From: Burkholderiales bacterium
GTDB taxonomy: Bacteria; Pseudomonadota; Gammaproteobacteria; Burkholderiales; Thiobacteraceae
Direction of reading: 5' to 3'
NCBI GenBank assembly: GCA_023511995.1
Contig: JAIMAL010000005.1
Location: 1 to 64,000, forward strand
Length of the DNA: 64,000 bases
Positions 17,271-24,436 of the stretch are shown one piece after another. Below the pieces are notes generated by a model. The model did no database searches. It worked only from the letters and a program-made list of their open reading frames with translations, and was not told where the DNA came from. Every line of letters starts with the position of its first letter. Positions within the stretch are counted from its first letter, which is position 1. The translations under genes were made by a program, and so were the position numbers.

Positions 17271-20249
17271 ATGTCCTCCCATTACGTCATCACCATGCCG
17301 CAGCTCTCGGACACCATGACCGAGGGCGTGGTGGTCACCTGGGAAAAGAAACCCGGTGATCGCGTCGAACGGGGTGACATCGTCGCCACCGTGGAAACCG
17401 ACAAAGCCATCATGGACGTGGAGGTGTTCAAGGCGGGTTACCTCGCCGGCCCGCTGGCCGAAGTGGGCTCCACCGTTCCCGTCGGGGGTGTGCTCGGTTA
17501 CATCACGGATACTCCGGGCGATCTGACGGTGCCGTCCGACGAGGTGGTCACGGAAAAGGCGCCCTCGGAAATGATCCCGCACCATGCCGGCACCGCCATC
17601 GTCATGCCGCAGCTATCCGATACCATGACCGAAGGCGTGGTGGTGAGCTGGGAAAAGAACATCGGCGACCCCATCAAGCGCGGCGACATCGTGGCCACGG
17701 TGGAAACCGACAAGGCCATCATGGACGTGGAGGTGTTCCAGGAGGGTTTTCTGTCGGGGCCGCTGGCGGACGTGGGCAGCACCGTGGAGGTGGGCCATCC
17801 CATGGGCTTCATCGTCAGTGATCCCGCCAAGGTGGTGGACACCGCGGTCACCATCACCGCCGACCACCGGGTCACCGATGTGCACCACAAGGCGCCCACA
17901 CCGCCTAAGCCGGCCACCCCCGCCCCGGCCAAACCCCTGCTCACCGCAACCCCCTCCGTGAGTGCAGAGGCCAAACCCGTGCCCCGCGTGCCCGGTCGCA
18001 AAATTACCCCCTACGCGCGCAAGGTGGCCGGCGCCCTGGGGGTGGACATTTCCACCATCGCCGGCAGCGGCCCGGAAGGCGTGGTCGTCGCCCTCGACGT
18101 GCAACGCGCCCGCCCCTCCATGAAAGAGGTGGCGCACAGTCTGCCGCAGGTGGACGTGCCGGGCGAGGGCCGGCCGATGACCTCCATGGAAAAGGCTGTG
18201 GCCCATGCCATGACGGCCTCCCTCACCATGCCCACCTTCCATGCCACCATGAACATCGACATGAACCGGCTCACCCAGGCCGCCAAGGCGCAGGGGGTGT
18301 CGGTGACCGTGGCCATCGCCAAAGCCTGCTCGCTGGCGATGCAGAAGCACCCGCGGATGAACTGGGCCTATCAGCCGGTGGACAAGCTAGTGGAGCGCAG
18401 CCACCACGATTTCGGCATCGCCGTGAAGAGCGACGACGGGGGGCTTGTCGTACCCATTCTGGCCGGCGTGGAACGCCGCAGTCTCAAGGAACTGCAGGCG
18501 GCGTGGAGCGAGCTCGTGCCGCGGGCGCGCATCCGCAAGCTGGCGCCGCGGGAATTCGCCAATCCCACCTTCACCATCTCCAACATGGGGATGTTCGGCA
18601 TCACCCATTTCACGGCGATCCCCACCCCGGGCATCGCCGCCATCCTGGCCATCGCTGCCGCCAGCCCCAATGGCACGCCCTTCACCATCACCGCCGACCA
18701 TCGGGTGCTCAATGGCGCCGACGTGGCCGCCTACCTGGTAGAGCTGAAAAACGTCATCGAACATCCGGAAACCTGGATGGAAGGGGCCGCCGTCTCCGCG
18801 CCGCCCCTCTCCCCCATTCCCGAAGGCAAGTGGGATACGCAGGTGCTGGTCATCGGCGGCGGTCCGGGGGGTGAGGACTGCGCCCGCGATCTGGCCGATC
18901 ATGGCATCCAGGTGGTGATGGTCAACGATGCCCCGCTGCCCGGCGGTGAATGCCTGTGGCGCGGCTGCATCCCGTCCAAGGCCTGGCGCCATGCGGCCGA
19001 CCTCATCCGCGACCGCGCCCATGACGCGGCCAAGGGCGTGGCGGGAACCGATCGGCCGCGGCTCGTCTGGGAAACGCTGGAGGCGCACCGCAAACAGGTC
19101 CTTCAAAGCCGCGGCGAGATGGCGTTGAAGACCGACAAGGGCATGAAAATCGACGTGCGCCAGGGCTTCGCCCGCTTCGTCGATGCCCACACCGTGGAAA
19201 TCACCCCCGTTGAGGGCGAACCCTACCGCCTCACCTTCGGCGCGGCGGTGATCGCCACCGGTGCTCCACCCTTCGTGCCGCCGATTCCCGGGGCACGCGA
19301 GGGCCTGGCCAGCGGTGGCGTGCTCACCTCCGACACCATCTGGAATCTGCCCGCCCCCATCCGCCGGCTCGGCATCATCGGCGGCGGCGTGATCGGCGTG
19401 GAAATGGCCCAGATCTGGAAGGACTTCGGCGCCGACATCCTGATGCTGGAAGCCCGGGATCGCATCCTCGCCGAAGTGGAGGAGGAGATCGCAAAACAGC
19501 TCACCACCCTCCTTACGGCTGAATTCCCCGTGGTGACCTCGGCAACCATCACCGCCATTTCCGGTGAGCCCGGCAACATGCGCATCGAGTACACCGATGG
19601 CGGCGGCGCACGCCACGAGTACGCCTGTGATTACGTGCTCATGGCCACGGGCAAACGCCCGGACACCTCGCGGCTCGCCCTGGACAAGGCGGGGGTCGCC
19701 CTCGATGGCGCCGCGATCAAGGTCGATGCCGCCTGCCGTACCAGTCAGCCCCACATCTACGCGGTGGGGGATGTCATCGGCGGCTACATGCTGGCCCACA
19801 CTGCAGCCACCCAGGGCCGGGTGGCGGCGCGCAACCTTACGGGACATCCCGCCCGCTACAATCCGGACCTCGACTGCGCTGTGACCTTCTCCCGGCCGCA
19901 GGCCGGCTTCGTCGGTCTGTCCCTGGCGCAGGCGAAGGCGAAGGGCATCGACGCGGTGGAAGCCAAGATTCCCCTGAGCATCGATGCCAAAGCGATGATC
20001 AGCCTGGAGACCCACGGCATGATCAAGCTGGTGGCGGACAAGGCCACGCAGAAGATCATCGGCGTGCATTTTCTCGCCGACCACACCGACACCCTGATCG
20101 GCGCGGCGGTGATGATGGTCAGCGGCGGCATGACCCTTGCCCAGGTGGCGGAGGCCATCTTCCCCCACCCCACGCAGACCGAACTCTTTGGCGAGCTGGC
20201 GCGGCGGCTTTTGGCGCGGCTGCGCCGGACGACGAAGGCCAAGGCTTAA
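17271..20249 (+). CDS. Fused dihydrolipoyl acetyltransferase (E2)-dihydrolipoyl dehydrogenase (E3)
   Basis: This 992-residue protein joins two PDH components that are normally separate. Two near-identical lipoyl domains come first, with lipoylation lysines Lys45 and Lys148 in ETDKAIMDVEVF. A Pro/Ala linker follows, then a peripheral subunit-binding domain (about 238-280; KITPYARKVAGALGVD). The E2 acyltransferase core spans about 295-505 with active-site DHRVLNGAD (His477; the usual Asp is Asn481). The E3 flavoprotein spans about 520-990 with FAD motif VIGGGPGG, redox cysteines Cys561 and Cys566 in CLWRGC, and C-terminal His966/Glu971. The start follows a TGAGGGG ribosome site. E1 genes lie upstream in the same operon. 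Confidence 0.93.
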   Translation: MSSHYVITMPQLSDTMTEGVVVTWEKKPGDRVERGDIVATVETDKAIMDVEVFKAGYLAGPLAEVGSTVPVGGVLGYITDTPGDLTVPSDEVVTEKAPSEMIPHHAGTAIVMPQLSDTMTEGVVVSWEKNIGDPIKRGDIVATVETDKAIMDVEVFQEGFLSGPLADVGSTVEVGHPMGFIVSDPAKVVDTAVTITADHRVTDVHHKAPTPPKPATPAPAKPLLTATPSVSAEAKPVPRVPGRKITPYARKVAGALGVDISTIAGSGPEGVVVALDVQRARPSMKEVAHSLPQVDVPGEGRPMTSMEKAVAHAMTASLTMPTFHATMNIDMNRLTQAAKAQGVSVTVAIAKACSLAMQKHPRMNWAYQPVDKLVERSHHDFGIAVKSDDGGLVVPILAGVERRSLKELQAAWSELVPRARIRKLAPREFANPTFTISNMGMFGITHFTAIPTPGIAAILAIAAASPNGTPFTITADHRVLNGADVAAYLVELKNVIEHPETWMEGAAVSAPPLSPIPEGKWDTQVLVIGGGPGGEDCARDLADHGIQVVMVNDAPLPGGECLWRGCIPSKAWRHAADLIRDRAHDAAKGVAGTDRPRLVWETLEAHRKQVLQSRGEMALKTDKGMKIDVRQGFARFVDAHTVEITPVEGEPYRLTFGAAVIATGAPPFVPPIPGAREGLASGGVLTSDTIWNLPAPIRRLGIIGGGVIGVEMAQIWKDFGADILMLEARDRILAEVEEEIAKQLTTLLTAEFPVVTSATITAISGEPGNMRIEYTDGGGARHEYACDYVLMATGKRPDTSRLALDKAGVALDGAAIKVDAACRTSQPHIYAVGDVIGGYMLAHTAATQGRVAARNLTGHPARYNPDLDCAVTFSRPQAGFVGLSLAQAKAKGIDAVEAKIPLSIDAKAMISLETHGMIKLVADKATQKIIGVHFLADHTDTLIGAAVMMVSGGMTLAQVAEAIFPHPTQTELFGELARRLLARLRRTTKAKA

Positions 20250-20268: not shown

Positions 20269-21630
20269 TCAGCCGTCGCGGCCTTCGCTTTGCCATGCCT
20301 TGAGCTTGCGCCAGAGGGAAGCGCGGTTGATGCCGAGAATCTGCGCCGCCGCGGTCTGGTTTCCGTTCACCTCCTTCAGCACCCGCTGGATGTAAGCGCG
20401 CTCCTGCTCCGCCAGCGTGGGCAGACGGTTGCCCGGTGGCACGAGTCCACGGCCTGCTCGCTTCTGCACATGCTCAGGCAGGTGAATGACCTCGATGGTA
20501 TCGTCCGTGGCCATGGCCACGCCACGTTCGATCAGATTTTCCAATTCCCGCACATTGCCGGGGAAACCATATTCCATCAGCGTCGCCATCACTTCCGCCG
20601 AGAGCCGGCTTACCGCCTTGTTCATTCGCCGCGCATACTTGGCGAGAAAATGGTGCGCAAGCAGCGGGATGTCGCCGCGGCGCTCCGCCAGTGAAGGCAG
20701 GTGCAGATTGACCACGTTGAGGCGGAAATAGAGATCCTCCCGGAAACGGCCACTGCTGACCGCCTCCTCCACGTCACGATTGGTGGCTGCCAACACCCGC
20801 ACATCACAGGGCACCGGACGGGTGCTGCCAAGGCGCAACACCTCTTTTTCCTGCAACACGCGCAGCAGCTTGACCTGCATGGACGGCGTCATCTCCGTCA
20901 CTTCGTCAAGAAAGAGAGTGCCGCCCGTGCTGACTTCGATGAGCCCCTTTTTCAGAGCTGTGGCACCGGTGAAAGCGCCTTTTTCGTGTCCAAACAATTC
21001 ATTTGCCAACAACTCCTCCGTGAACGCGCCGCAGTTGATGGCGGTGTAGGGGCCATCCCGTCGGTTGCTGTACTGATGGACATAGCGGGCAAGCAGTTCC
21101 TTACCAGTGCCGCTCGCGCCGGTGATGAGCACATTGCAGTCCGTCGGGGCAATCTGTCGCGCGATCTCCAGGAGCCGCTGCATGGCCGGGTCCTGGGTGA
21201 CGATCCCCACATCGTCCCGATAGCGCGCAATTTCCCGCCGCAGCAGTTGATTCTCGCGGCGCAGGCGGACCTTTTCCACCGCCTCGGCCACGACCTTGCG
21301 CACTTCATCCAGGCGAAACGGTTTGGCCAGGTAGTAGAAGGCCCCATGCTTCAGCGCCTGCACAGCAGATTCCGCCGTCGCGTAGCCGGTGATGAAGATC
21401 ACCTCGGCATCCGGTTGCAGTTGCCGGCTCCGCTTGAGGACATCCATGCCATCGGCACCTTCCATACGCAGGTCGGTGAGCACGACGTCGAAGCGCATGC
21501 GTTCCAGACAGTCCATCGCCTCGGCACCACTTTGACAGGCCGTGACCCGGTAGCCCTCCTTTTCCATCACGTGCTGCAGATTGCGCAGCGCGATCTCTTC
21601 GTCATCGACGATGAGCAAATGGGCTTGCAT
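20269..21630 (-). CDS. NtrC-family sigma-54-dependent response regulator
   Basis: This 453-residue activator has three modules. The receiver domain has phospho-acceptor Asp53 in LTDLRM. The AAA+ sigma-54 activation domain has Walker A GASGTGKE, GAFTGA loop GHEKGAFTGAT, Walker B GTLFLDEV and the arginine-finger region. A Fis-type helix-turn-helix closes the protein (NQTAAAQILGINRASLWRKL). ATG 21630 overlaps the kinase stop as ATGA, so translation is coupled. The protein must act with RpoN; a good sigma-54 promoter lies at 23327-23343, in front of the divergent DUF599 gene. Confidence 0.94.
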   Translation of the reverse strand: MQAHLLIVDDEEIALRNLQHVMEKEGYRVTACQSGAEAMDCLERMRFDVVLTDLRMEGADGMDVLKRSRQLQPDAEVIFITGYATAESAVQALKHGAFYYLAKPFRLDEVRKVVAEAVEKVRLRRENQLLRREIARYRDDVGIVTQDPAMQRLLEIARQIAPTDCNVLITGASGTGKELLARYVHQYSNRRDGPYTAINCGAFTEELLANELFGHEKGAFTGATALKKGLIEVSTGGTLFLDEVTEMTPSMQVKLLRVLQEKEVLRLGSTRPVPCDVRVLAATNRDVEEAVSSGRFREDLYFRLNVVNLHLPSLAERRGDIPLLAHHFLAKYARRMNKAVSRLSAEVMATLMEYGFPGNVRELENLIERGVAMATDDTIEVIHLPEHVQKRAGRGLVPPGNRLPTLAEQERAYIQRVLKEVNGNQTAAAQILGINRASLWRKLKAWQSEGRDG

Positions 21631-23120
21631 CAGGCATCTCCCACTTCTGCCACAGGCAGGCGGATGCGGAAGGTTGCACCCTCTCCCGGCGTGCTTTGCA
21701 CGGCGATGCATCCGCCGTGTTCGTCCACGATCTGGTAGACCACAAAAAGCCCCAGTCCCATCCCGTGGCCCACCTCCTTGGTGGTGAAGAAGGGATCGAA
21801 AATGTGGGGCAGGATGTCAGGAGCGATTCCCGGACCGTTATCGGCGACACTGATCTCCACGACCTCGCCCTCCGTTTCGCAGCCGATCCCGAGGGAGGTA
21901 CCCTGCGGCGGCCCGTCCACCCGGAGCCGCCGCGCGGAGATGCGGATCTCCCCATCCGTACTCAGACCGTCCAGCGCATTGCGGATCAGATTCACGAACA
22001 CCTGCTGGAGACGCTGCGCATCGGCCGGGACGTACAGGTCCTCAGGAACATCCAACCCGACCACCGACTTCGCGGACACTTCGCCCCGCACAAAGCCCAC
22101 GGTCTGCTGGATCAGTGGCCGTAGCAGCACGGGTTCCTTGCGGAATTGTTTCTCCCGCGAGAACTCGAGCAGGGAACGGACGATGTGGCGCGCCCGCTCG
22201 GTCTGCTGGTCGATCGCTTCGAGGTATGCTTTCTGCGTTTGCGGATCGGCCTCACCCAACTCCTCCTGCAGAATCTGACAGGAGGTGGAGATGTTTGACA
22301 ACGGGTTGTTCAGCTCGTGGGCCACGCCGGAGAGCATGGTGCCGAGCGAGGCCAGCCGCTCGGAACGCATGAGCGACTTCTGCCGCAGATCCAGCTCCTT
22401 CAGCATGTGATTGAAGGCGGAAATGATGGAGAGGATTTCCCGGTCATTGGACGGCGGCGAGAGGAACTCCCGGCGCTGCGCGCCGATCGCCGCCACACTG
22501 GCCTCCATTTCCTTGAGGGGACGTACCACCCGCTGTGACAACGCACGGCCGATGACCACGATCAGCGAAGCCACGGCAACAATAACGGCAAGGAGCAAGG
22601 TACGCAGGGATGCGAGGGTAGCCTGGACCTCACGCCGCTCGGAGGTGGCCATGTCCTCGGCGATAGCCACCACCTCCTGGCCTAGCGCTCTTAGCGACGG
22701 CTCATTGGCCCGCATTTCCCCCGCCGCATCGGCCGCCGCCAATGCCGACAGGCGTTGCTGATAGCGGTCGAGCAGCAGATCCAGCTGACCAATCCGCGCC
22801 GCCGGCGCGATGGCGAGGAACTCGGCGCGGTGGCTGCGCAGCAGATGCTGTGCGAGCTGGACGTAACGGGCGGCCTCCAGACGATCGCTTGCCACATGAT
22901 AAAGAAAATAGTTGCGCTCGAAACGACGGATCTCCAGCACCGTATCGAATAGGTCGGTGGCGCGTTGACCCAGCACGACCCGGGCCTCCAGCGTGCGCAG
23001 TTCGCCGACAAAGAAGAGTGTTGCCACCACCATCATGGCTGCCACCGCGGCGTAGCCCAAGGTGATCTTCCCCCGCAGGGAATGCCGCAGCCCCAGCAGA
23101 CCTTCGATGCCCAATCCCAT
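21630..23120 (-). CDS. Membrane sensor histidine kinase paired with the NtrC-type regulator
   Basis: The 496-residue kinase has a membrane segment near the N-terminus (ITLGYAAVAAMMVVATLFFV). A helical periplasmic sensor of about 135 residues follows, with RRFERNYFLYH resembling four-helix-bundle sensors. After the second membrane segment comes a HAMP domain. The cytoplasmic part has a HisKA domain with AHELNNPLSNI and an HATPase with NLIRNALDGL, DNGPGIAP and GMGLGLFVV. ATG 23120 is preferred over TTG 23159, because the longer start lacks a ribosome site and would overlap the paired repeats at 23155-23182. The signal is unknown. Confidence 0.9.
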   Translation of the reverse strand: MGLGIEGLLGLRHSLRGKITLGYAAVAAMMVVATLFFVGELRTLEARVVLGQRATDLFDTVLEIRRFERNYFLYHVASDRLEAARYVQLAQHLLRSHRAEFLAIAPAARIGQLDLLLDRYQQRLSALAAADAAGEMRANEPSLRALGQEVVAIAEDMATSERREVQATLASLRTLLLAVIVAVASLIVVIGRALSQRVVRPLKEMEASVAAIGAQRREFLSPPSNDREILSIISAFNHMLKELDLRQKSLMRSERLASLGTMLSGVAHELNNPLSNISTSCQILQEELGEADPQTQKAYLEAIDQQTERARHIVRSLLEFSREKQFRKEPVLLRPLIQQTVGFVRGEVSAKSVVGLDVPEDLYVPADAQRLQQVFVNLIRNALDGLSTDGEIRISARRLRVDGPPQGTSLGIGCETEGEVVEISVADNGPGIAPDILPHIFDPFFTTKEVGHGMGLGLFVVYQIVDEHGGCIAVQSTPGEGATFRIRLPVAEVGDA

Positions 23121-23154
23121 TGCCGCCCCAATCCCCGACCAAGGTGTCCCACTA

Positions 23155-23182
23155 TGCAACAGGCCGTCACATTTTGCAACAG
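23155..23182. promoter_or_regulatory. Paired direct repeats, candidate enhancer for the response regulator
   Basis: TGCAACAG occurs at 23155-23162 and again at 23175-23182, exactly 20 bases apart (about two helical turns), each in a T/A-rich context. They lie 145-172 bases upstream of the sigma-54 promoter, the usual distance for an NtrC-type enhancer, and just upstream of the kinase start. Assignment to this regulator is an inference from position. Confidence 0.45.
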
Positions 23183-23326
23183 ACCCAGATAAGGAGATTT
23201 TGAGTTTGCTGCCCGAGGGTTAGCGGTTCGGTTCCGTGCCCCGCGTTGCGCAGTTCAACGTGCGGCGTCGAACCCCGTTTCGCCGCGCTAGCGATAAAAT
23301 CAAATTAAAACAGGCGTTTAGAGAGG

Positions 23327-23343
23327 CTGGCACGCAAGCTGCA
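23327..23343 (+). promoter_or_regulatory. Sigma-54 (-24/-12) promoter upstream of the DUF599 gene
   Basis: CTGGCACGCAAGCTGCA matches the consensus YTGGCACG-N4-TTGCW with one deviation (CTGC for TTGC). The invariant GG and GC doublets have correct spacing. It points toward the DUF599 gene and would start transcription near 23355. It lies beside genes for a sigma-54 activator and its kinase. Confidence 0.75.
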
Positions 23344-23379
23344 TGGCCATGGCCGAGAAAACTCTCAACGGAGCAGGGC

Positions 23380-23586
23380 ATGGACCCCCACCAGTCTACC
23401 GGCAAACGACTCCTCGCCTGCTTGGCTTTTGCCAATGCAGGCAACATGAATGAATTTCTGACCCTGTTGCGCGACACTCCGCCGCCCGGGCCCTTGGTGA
23501 GCCGGTCCGCTTCGCAGCAGCCTGGCGCAGGGCGAAAAAAGCGTCTGCCCGCGGCACCCATCCCGCTCTTTGATCAAACCCGCTAG
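23380..23586 (+). CDS. Possible small basic protein in the sigma-54 leader
   Basis: An open frame of 68 codons starts at ATG 23380, about 25 bases after the predicted sigma-54 transcription start, with GGAG ten bases upstream. The product begins MDPHQSTGKRLLACLAFANA and becomes Pro/Arg-rich. I recognise no family. It could be a real leader peptide or chance in GC-rich DNA. Confidence 0.25.
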   Translation: MDPHQSTGKRLLACLAFANAGNMNEFLTLLRDTPPPGPLVSRSASQQPGAGRKKRLPAAPIPLFDQTR

Positions 23587-23635
23587 CGCCTCCCTCCACC
23601 GGCATGGACGATTCGAAAGGAACACGCGAGAGCAA

Positions 23636-24376
23636 ATGAGTCACCTTGAGGAATTCGCTGCCGACCTACTGTCGTTCGTTGCCAGCTGCCTGCTGGTGGC
23701 GGGCTACTATTACTTTCTCCAGCGCAGGGTGCGCACCAATCCCACGTACACCATCCATGGTGTCAATGCCCTGGCGCGCCGCCTCTGGGTGGAGAACGTC
23801 ATGCGCAATCCCGCCAAGGACATCATGGCCGTTCAGTCTTTGCGCAATTTCATCATGGCCCCTTCCCTCATGGCTTCCACGGCTGCGCTGCTCATCATCG
23901 GTACGCTGACCCTCTCCGGCCAGGCCGACAATATCTCCCGGACCTGGCACGTGCTGAGTATCGGCGGCTCCTCCTCCAGCGCCCTGTGGATTTTCAAAGT
24001 GATGCTTCTGTTGGTGGACTTCATCGTCGCCTTCTTCGCCTTCGCCATGTCGGTGCGTCTGGCCAATCATGTGTTGTTCATGATCAACGTTCCCGAACAC
24101 GATGCCCACCACAACTTCTCGCCGAAGGCCGTGGCTCGCCGGCTTCACCGCGCCGGCAACATGTTTGCGATCGGCATGCGCGCCTTCTTCATCGCCATCC
24201 CGTTGGTGTTCTGGTTGTTCGGGCCGTATTTCCTTCTGCTCGCAGCCGTGGGCCTGGTGATCACCCTGCATCGCCTTGACCGCAGTGAAACGCAGGAAGA
24301 GATTGAAGCGGACTGCCTGCCTGTACCCAACAGAACGTCTGTCATCCCCCTGCAGCGAGCCAGACAGGCCGACTGA
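23636..24376 (+). CDS. DUF599 family integral membrane protein
   Basis: This 246-residue protein has about four or five hydrophobic segments and the family features NPAKDIMAVQSLRNFIMA and the NVPEHDAHHNFSP loop. DUF599 proteins are predicted membrane proteins without an assigned role. ATG 23636 with GAGAG upstream is chosen; an in-frame ATG at 23570 would add 22 residues unlike the family. The upstream sigma-54 promoter and the divergent NtrC-type system suggest it is the system's dedicated target. A strong terminator follows, so it is transcribed alone or with the small leader frame. Confidence 0.85.
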   Translation: MSHLEEFAADLLSFVASCLLVAGYYYFLQRRVRTNPTYTIHGVNALARRLWVENVMRNPAKDIMAVQSLRNFIMAPSLMASTAALLIIGTLTLSGQADNISRTWHVLSIGGSSSSALWIFKVMLLLVDFIVAFFAFAMSVRLANHVLFMINVPEHDAHHNFSPKAVARRLHRAGNMFAIGMRAFFIAIPLVFWLFGPYFLLLAAVGLVITLHRLDRSETQEEIEADCLPVPNRTSVIPLQRARQAD

Positions 24377-24414: not shown

Positions 24415-24436
24415 GGGCCGCTTCGCGGCCCTTTTT
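24415..24436 (+). terminator. Intrinsic terminator after the DUF599 gene
   Basis: The perfect 7-bp stem GGGCCGC/GCGGCCC with a TTC loop is followed by TTTTT. It lies about 40 bases after the DUF599 stop codon and isolates the locus from ettA. Confidence 0.9.

Follow-up and report, generated by a model that had tools for sequence, protein, structure and literature searches.

The locus occupies C5:20269-24376 of a 2.5-Mb genome (Burkholderiales bacterium, GCA_023511995.1) and falls within the stretch of 64,000 nucleotides that was analysed as a whole, hereafter the window. Its minus strand encodes an NtrC-type response regulator of 453 aa (20269-21630; Pfam Response_reg, Sigma54_activat and HTH_8) and a membrane histidine kinase of 496 aa (21630-23120) with a predicted four-helix periplasmic sensor and HAMP, HisKA and HATPase domains, the kinase stop overlapping the regulator start by one base. 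Divergent from this pair on the plus strand, as a preliminary description had claimed and as open reading frames and Pfam domains bear out, is the gene for a DUF599 membrane protein of 246 aa (23636-24376). A small ORF of 68 aa (23380-23586, plus strand) with the motif L.ALAFANxGNxxEF..LL precedes it. The terminator that had been placed after DUF599 is also present: a sequence scan located an intrinsic terminator stem of seven G-C pairs out of seven, with a loop of three and then the T-run TTTTTCTTGT, at 24415-24431 on the plus strand, where it precedes ettA and closes the DUF599 unit, although the two sites found in the region as a whole, against 1.4 expected in shuffles, are a count at chance level. 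Elsewhere in the window, at 17271-20249 (plus strand), a 992-aa ORF reads in translation as a fusion of the E2 and E3 components of pyruvate dehydrogenase, the E2 part with two lipoyl-like repeats, and is preceded by ORFs that read as E1 alpha and beta.

The divergent units are separated by a putative sigma-54 -24/-12 element, TGGCACGCAAGCTGCA (23328-23343, plus strand), which is kept in relatives. The preliminary description had this near-consensus element and its GG-N10-GC spacing right, with its start one base off. It had also reported two TGCAACAG repeats, and these are indeed found at 23155-23162 and 23175-23182, but they are the right halves of imperfect palindromes, to which no strand is assigned. 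The distal palindrome, GTCCCACTATGCAAC (23146-23160), has two mismatches to GTTGCA-N3-TGCAAC and lies 182 bp upstream of -24; a second distal one, GTCACATTTTGCAAC (23166-23180), lies 20 bp promoter-ward of the first; and a proximal one that had been missed, GTTGCGCAGTTCAAC (23245-23259), lies 83 bp upstream of -24. The promoter had been taken to be aimed at DUF599, and it very probably does drive this gene, but the first gene past it is the 68-aa ORF, which had been overlooked.

Comparison with relatives sharpens these signals, the consensus there being a clean GTTGCA-N3-TGCAAC. The 260-bp promoter regions of 27 DUF599 module loci hold on average 1.85 palindromes with no more than two mismatches; these loci were taken without a palindrome criterion (26 of the 27 have one), and the 28th DUF599 locus (L194) was omitted because the scanned stretch contained no -24/-12 site that reached score 9. 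The flanking DNA of 64 loci, including 37 other-cargo loci selected for a palindrome, holds 0.013 per 260 bp. Of the 27 loci, 24 have a distal site, and in 23 of those it begins 177-183 bp upstream of -24; for the proximal site the distance is 79-83 bp in 23 of 24. The -24/-12 score is at least 10 in 24 of the 28 DUF599 module loci, and a score of at least 9 coincides with a palindrome in 26 of the 28, where the choice among several -24/-12 candidates favoured the one with more palindromes. The promoter and palindrome recur across relatives; the pair spaced by 20 bp, whose recurrence the preliminary description had proposed as a check, is confined among DUF599 module loci to the window and the same-genus genome G050. 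The genome also encodes rpoN (PF04552, 222 bits). Sigma-54 regulation of the module is well supported by this comparison of putative sites.

The regulator consists of a receiver, a sigma-54 AAA+ domain and a Fis HTH, and its translation contains GAFTGA, which we take to be the sigma-54 activator motif. It reaches no NCBIfam cut-off among the 25 matches listed, falling below those for the equivalogs AtoC (436 bits, cut-off 714), ntrC (404, cut-off 559) and GlrR (397, cut-off 763). The sensor was modelled as a four-helix bundle (pLDDT 88.8) and carries an invariant RR.E motif, whose two adjacent arginines are invariant in 20 and in 30 aligned sensors. In Foldseek the model lies nearest NarQ and QseE, and also de novo bundles; NarQ-type four-helix sensors are its best relative (prob 1.00, TM 0.57-0.63), but the E-values are only 2e-3 and four-helix bundles are common. 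Matches to HBM (PF16591) are weak and limited to two of 20 sensor members (best E 0.0023), the window's copy not among them. That the kinase senses an anion is a lead only. With regard to QseE, the profile of window-type kinase sensors matches 9m08_C, titled QseG-QseE complex (E=2.8e-5), and GlrK-GlrR / QseE-QseF likewise has a sigma-54 regulator; its genetic context differs, however, and the window's regulator stays below the GlrR cut-off. Another likeness is to TspS-TspR and TcsS-TcsR, which the available portion of PMC12194929 presents as sigma-54 kinase-regulator pairs of chemolithoautotrophic sulfur oxidizers, namely Acidithiobacillia, beside sox or tetH-doxDA genes. In a comparison confined to description and neighbourhood, TspS-TspR is sox-adjacent according to that portion, whereas the window's module lies beside a small protein and a putative anion carrier. 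The soxB gene of the window's genome is on another contig than the module (C1:179332).

A search of 300 genomes of the order found the sensor region in 20 of them, at 21 loci. Each of the 21 has adjacent kinase and regulator genes, a divergent -24/-12 element with a score of 10-11 out of 12, and one or more palindromes that deviate from the consensus at no more than two positions. A further survey of species genomes took the best 80 of 376 candidate loci, because of which the loci named here favour near relatives; the 21 and 80 loci, less 13 duplicate records, gave 88 distinct kinases. Genes on the strand that points away from the kinase, up to a distance of 6.5 kb, were the only ones scored as cargo; the direction of the cargo is therefore set by construction, and the genes counted are putative members of the operon. 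Over the 88 kinases the cargo is DUF599 alone in 26, DUF599 with SulP in two, SulP in 33, TauE/SafE in 19 and ChrA in one, while in seven there is none or the contig is too short; including the double-cargo loci, DUF599 is found at 28 and SulP at 35 of the 88. Of the 88 loci, 75 reach a -24/-12 score of 9 or more and 71 have a palindrome; the two signals occur together at 24 of 26 DUF599 loci, both double-cargo loci, all 33 SulP loci, six of 19 TauE loci, the one ChrA locus and five of the seven loci with none. The 13 TauE loci where promoter and palindrome were not found are mostly from Nitrospirota. Similarly, 10 of the 13 loci among the 88 with no promoter match are Nitrospirota by title or taxonomy, and seven of these 13 gave no convincing match when rescanned over 3 kb. 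TauE can be as distant as 5.3 kb from the point of reference, and may therefore lie outside the operon at such loci. Proton_antipo_M-like genes follow in 17 of the 35 SulP loci, and some SulP loci also have genes that we label Usp-like; two such proteins and two fused ones were scanned and gave no Pfam match. The cargo of genome G043 also includes a sodium:sulfate symporter. Two loci, L176 and L219, come from metagenome-assembled records titled Rhizobium sp. and Bordetella parapertussis; their modules are of the Thiobacillus or betaproteobacterial autotroph type, and the titles are for that reason probably wrong.

In a kinase tree from a quick search, with SH-aLRT and no bootstrap as branch support, 27 DUF599 loci group together in a single clade (SH-aLRT 100) that lies within the SulP loci. 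This clade holds the window together with Thiobacillus, Hydrogenophilales and relatives and one member of the Rhodocyclaceae, and DUF599 is present at 27 of its 27 loci, in line with the local sigma-54 two-component system of the preliminary description. Its earliest branch, L198 (Rhodocyclaceae), has the order small-DUF599-SulP-NuoL, and elsewhere in the tree a Sulfuricella denitrificans MAG (G106/L230) has small-SulP-DUF599. In genome G173 the cargo of the module is SulP; DUF599 is found at a distance of about 10 kb from the kinase, where it has a palindrome and a -24/-12 element of its own as well as a small ORF that by eye seems truncated. These three loci look like intermediates of a cargo swap. 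Outside the clade, a kinase-regulator pair of like kind stands beside SulP, TauE or ChrA. These carriers thus sit behind the same kind of pair as DUF599, most SulP loci having the same promoter and palindromes as well, yet the searches with DUF599 turned up no sequence or fold relation to them. Three SulP genes lie elsewhere in the window's genome, all of them without a palindrome in their vicinity, and DUF599 therefore need not replace SulP function. In the same genome, a SulP gene and the gene for the RuBisCO large subunit are about 2 kb apart (G000:C2:96751-101213).

The window's DUF599 protein scores 211 bits against PF04654, where the gathering cut-off is 27, and is the only copy in its genome. 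The preliminary description had gone on to link the DUF599 family to one signal and one regulator, a claim that the comparison does not support: DUF599 occurs in 92 of the 300 genomes of the order and the kinase in 14 of those 92, while other loci of the module carry SulP, TauE or ChrA. Relatives that keep DUF599 without the kinase and regulator, the very observation that had been named as counting against the link, are thus common (78 of the 92), which argues that DUF599 has wider roles. Within 450 bp, promoter and palindrome precede DUF599 at four of 16 copies in kinase genomes, a count that leaves out G067 with its promoter about 520 bp upstream, and at none of 88 copies elsewhere. Therefore, given the 78 genomes and the 88 copies, the family as a whole is not tied to the window's regulator.

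A model of DUF599 built from 26 sequences (pLDDT 70) found no Foldseek match in the PDB at E<0.001, and VIA-align matched it to nothing but helical bundles (Z at most 10.4), for which reasons we make no claim about its fold; a PDB sequence search with the DUF599 profile gave nothing convincing (best E 0.14). Bestrophin, suggested as a relative by besA in an eLife paper, was absent among the matches listed, and the protein in an Erwinia copper paper proved to be DUF5993, another family. The available portion of Michener et al. (PMC4271186) does concern a member of the same Pfam family, EdgA of Methylobacterium, for which the authors inferred a role in chloride export. EdgA differs from the window's protein in being alphaproteobacterial and in having been found via laboratory-evolved alleles, and no regulator is described in that portion of the paper. 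Carrier-like matches, some of them weak, lie within about 6 kb of DUF599 at 12 of 103 loci of the order besides the window, in a neighbour survey from which many wrong-frame ORF clusters were dropped. At 17 loci (e.g. L108, L115) a gene that by reading is Sel1-repeat-like lies near DUF599, with a median start 0.95 kb before it; 10 of the 17 are on the same strand, some are perhaps wrong-frame, and 13 of the 17 loci have the window-like type of DUF599. L094 (G154:C5) has a second DUF599 gene, oriented divergently to a different sigma-54 two-component pair whose regulator scores 320 bits to the window's; the gap between them contains TGGTACGCAACTTGCG, with no palindrome and no small-protein match.

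The 68-aa protein has no Pfam or NCBIfam match and is, judging from its sequence, a member of an undescribed small-protein family. Relatives occupy the matching position at 57 of the 88 loci and 27 of the 28 DUF599 loci (by cargo, 25 of 26 with DUF599 alone, two of two with both, 20 of 33 with SulP, six of 19 with TauE, one of one with ChrA and three of seven with none); the other 31 of the 88 gave no small-protein match. Among the 21 loci of the order, it starts 45-90 bp from -24 at 18 and carries the motif L.ALAFANxGN or MAYAEAGD, while G095, G266 and G187 have no small-protein match and a Usp-like ORF in its place, the one in G266 being without a Pfam match. Of the 300 genomes, 16 contain a match to the small-protein profile at E<=1e-6, and 14 of the 16 also have the kinase. 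Six further copies are located away from the module promoter (L282-L287, in G035, G062, G182, G014, G080 and G243). Five of the six are directly before SulP, G243 having the order small-SulP-DUF599, and none has the sigma-54 signals; five of the six also stand behind a different kinase-receiver pair, among them four of the five that precede SulP. Therefore, the small protein appears to belong with the carrier and not only with the regulator. In three genomes (L173, L171 and L172, in G261, G043 and G088) a longer, Usp-like ORF begins with the small-protein motif. Those of L171 and L172 have no Pfam match, and the SulP of G043 itself has a Usp domain.

One might ask whether the 68-aa ORF is a protein at all. 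It is short, its C-terminal half is variable and its dN/dS has a median of 0.53 over 314 pairs, all that were usable, as might be expected if it were a leader whose conservation reflects RNA. We consider this highly improbable, given that the profile finds relatives at the corresponding position even in distant loci, that dN/dS is 0.05-0.15 in the six closest pairs (from four Thiobacillus sequences), that more copies stand before SulP where the promoter is absent, and that the motif begins a longer protein in the three genomes above. The presence of the small protein bears in turn on the account in the preliminary description, in which the stand-alone pair controls DUF599 as its dedicated single target and function is left open. 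In the window's genome there are 48 palindromes (at most two mismatches) and 30 matches to TGGCAYRN5TGCW, and the two signals fall within 1 kb of each other only at the DUF599 locus; with one such site, the regulator seems to have a single target there, and the constancy of DUF599 throughout the kinase clade agrees with this. As an account of the module, however, it is quite improbable: the first gene past the promoter encodes the small protein, like pairs with promoter and palindromes precede other carriers outside the clade, and most DUF599 genomes lack the kinase.

What the carriers move was approached through the physiology of the host genomes, where two functional readings compete. A dsrA match (E<=1e-80) is present in 64 of the 300 genomes of the order, including 20 of 20 kinase genomes versus 44 of 280 others (p=2.6e-15, relatedness ignored); it exceeds the family cut-off in 18 of the 20, and in G014 and G261 there are only pieces below it. 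SoxB over cut-off is likewise present in all 20, but with 140 of 300 genomes it is less discriminating than dsrA. Genomes with DUF599 of the close type have dsrA in 23 of 32, counting two (G140 and G100, loci L096 and L097) that are without it. Carbon fixation follows the kinase as well: a RuBisCO match occurs in 137 of the 300 genomes, that is in 20 of 20 kinase genomes versus 117 of 280 others, and still in 19 of the 20 when 27 weak matches are set aside. The module might then serve inorganic-carbon uptake, its carriers importing bicarbonate for the Calvin cycle and DUF599 being a bicarbonate channel or counter-ion path. According to the available portion of PMC10880623, bicarbonate is carried in autotrophic Proteobacteria by SulP-family transporters and by one of the Chr family; according to that of PMC12628692, an E. 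coli strain was rescued at low CO2 by a SulP of Thiomicrospira pelophila that is carboxysome-adjacent, whereas this organism's other SulP and its Chr protein gave no rescue. The Proton_antipo_M-like genes after SulP would also suit carbon uptake. Among the 137 RuBisCO genomes, however, the kinase is found in 20 of 62 with dsrA and in none of 75 without it (relatedness ignored), and these 75 genomes are all that separates carbon fixation from sulfur oxidation. Furthermore, we know of no TauE/SafE or sodium:sulfate symporter that carries bicarbonate. In view of the dsrA distribution, carbon uptake, which had initially been our first functional reading, was put second, and we now regard it as unlikely.

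On balance, we consider it probable that the locus is a sigma-54 module for anion traffic in reverse-Dsr sulfur oxidizers, which are mostly autotrophic, and that DUF599 is its anion carrier here, likely for export of a sulfur oxyanion or counter-anion. The parts of this module, its putative promoter and enhancer sites, the exchange of cargo and the co-occurrence with dsrA can be read directly from the genomes compared. In the proposed mechanism, the membrane kinase, with its four-helix periplasmic sensor, would phosphorylate the NtrC-type regulator, which would then bind GTTGCA-N3-TGCAAC enhancers, located some 182 and 80 bp before the -24/-12 promoter, and start an operon pointing away from the two regulatory genes. 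This putative operon would begin with the small LAFAN-motif protein, perhaps an accessory or gate associated with the carrier, and continue with a membrane anion carrier, which is SulP or TauE/SafE in most other lineages, ChrA once, and DUF599 in the Thiobacillus-like lineage. Since the other cargo (SulP, TauE/SafE, ChrA and the sodium:sulfate symporter) fits oxyanion transport, and since chloride export was inferred for EdgA in the available portion of the work on it, DUF599 most likely moves an anion in this module. It would most likely act as an exporter, either of sulfate or sulfite as sulfur oxyanions or of a counter-anion that cytoplasmic sulfur oxidation produces. More doubtful is the bolder proposal that DUF599 represents an overlooked exporter or channel of reverse-Dsr sulfur oxidizers for such an oxyanion or counter-ion, gated by the LAFAN protein, and that the module is a plug-in slot where unrelated anion carriers (SulP, TauE, ChrA and DUF599) have succeeded one another during evolution.

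Sigma-54 two-component control of transport is a known kind of regulation; the swappable carriers, the undescribed small protein and the DUF599 slot are a new combination, and no description of the module was found among the matches listed in the literature searched, which covered few subscription journals. To our knowledge, the means by which sulfur oxidizers dispose of cytoplasmic sulfite or sulfate anions are poorly known. The module points to candidate anion carriers of these organisms, one of them from a family without assigned function, and its regulator and promoter offer a handle for switching such candidates. The small protein accompanies SulP also at loci that lack the sigma-54 signals. 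For DUF599, the module yields a hypothesis of anion transport that is testable in cultured Thiobacillus strains.
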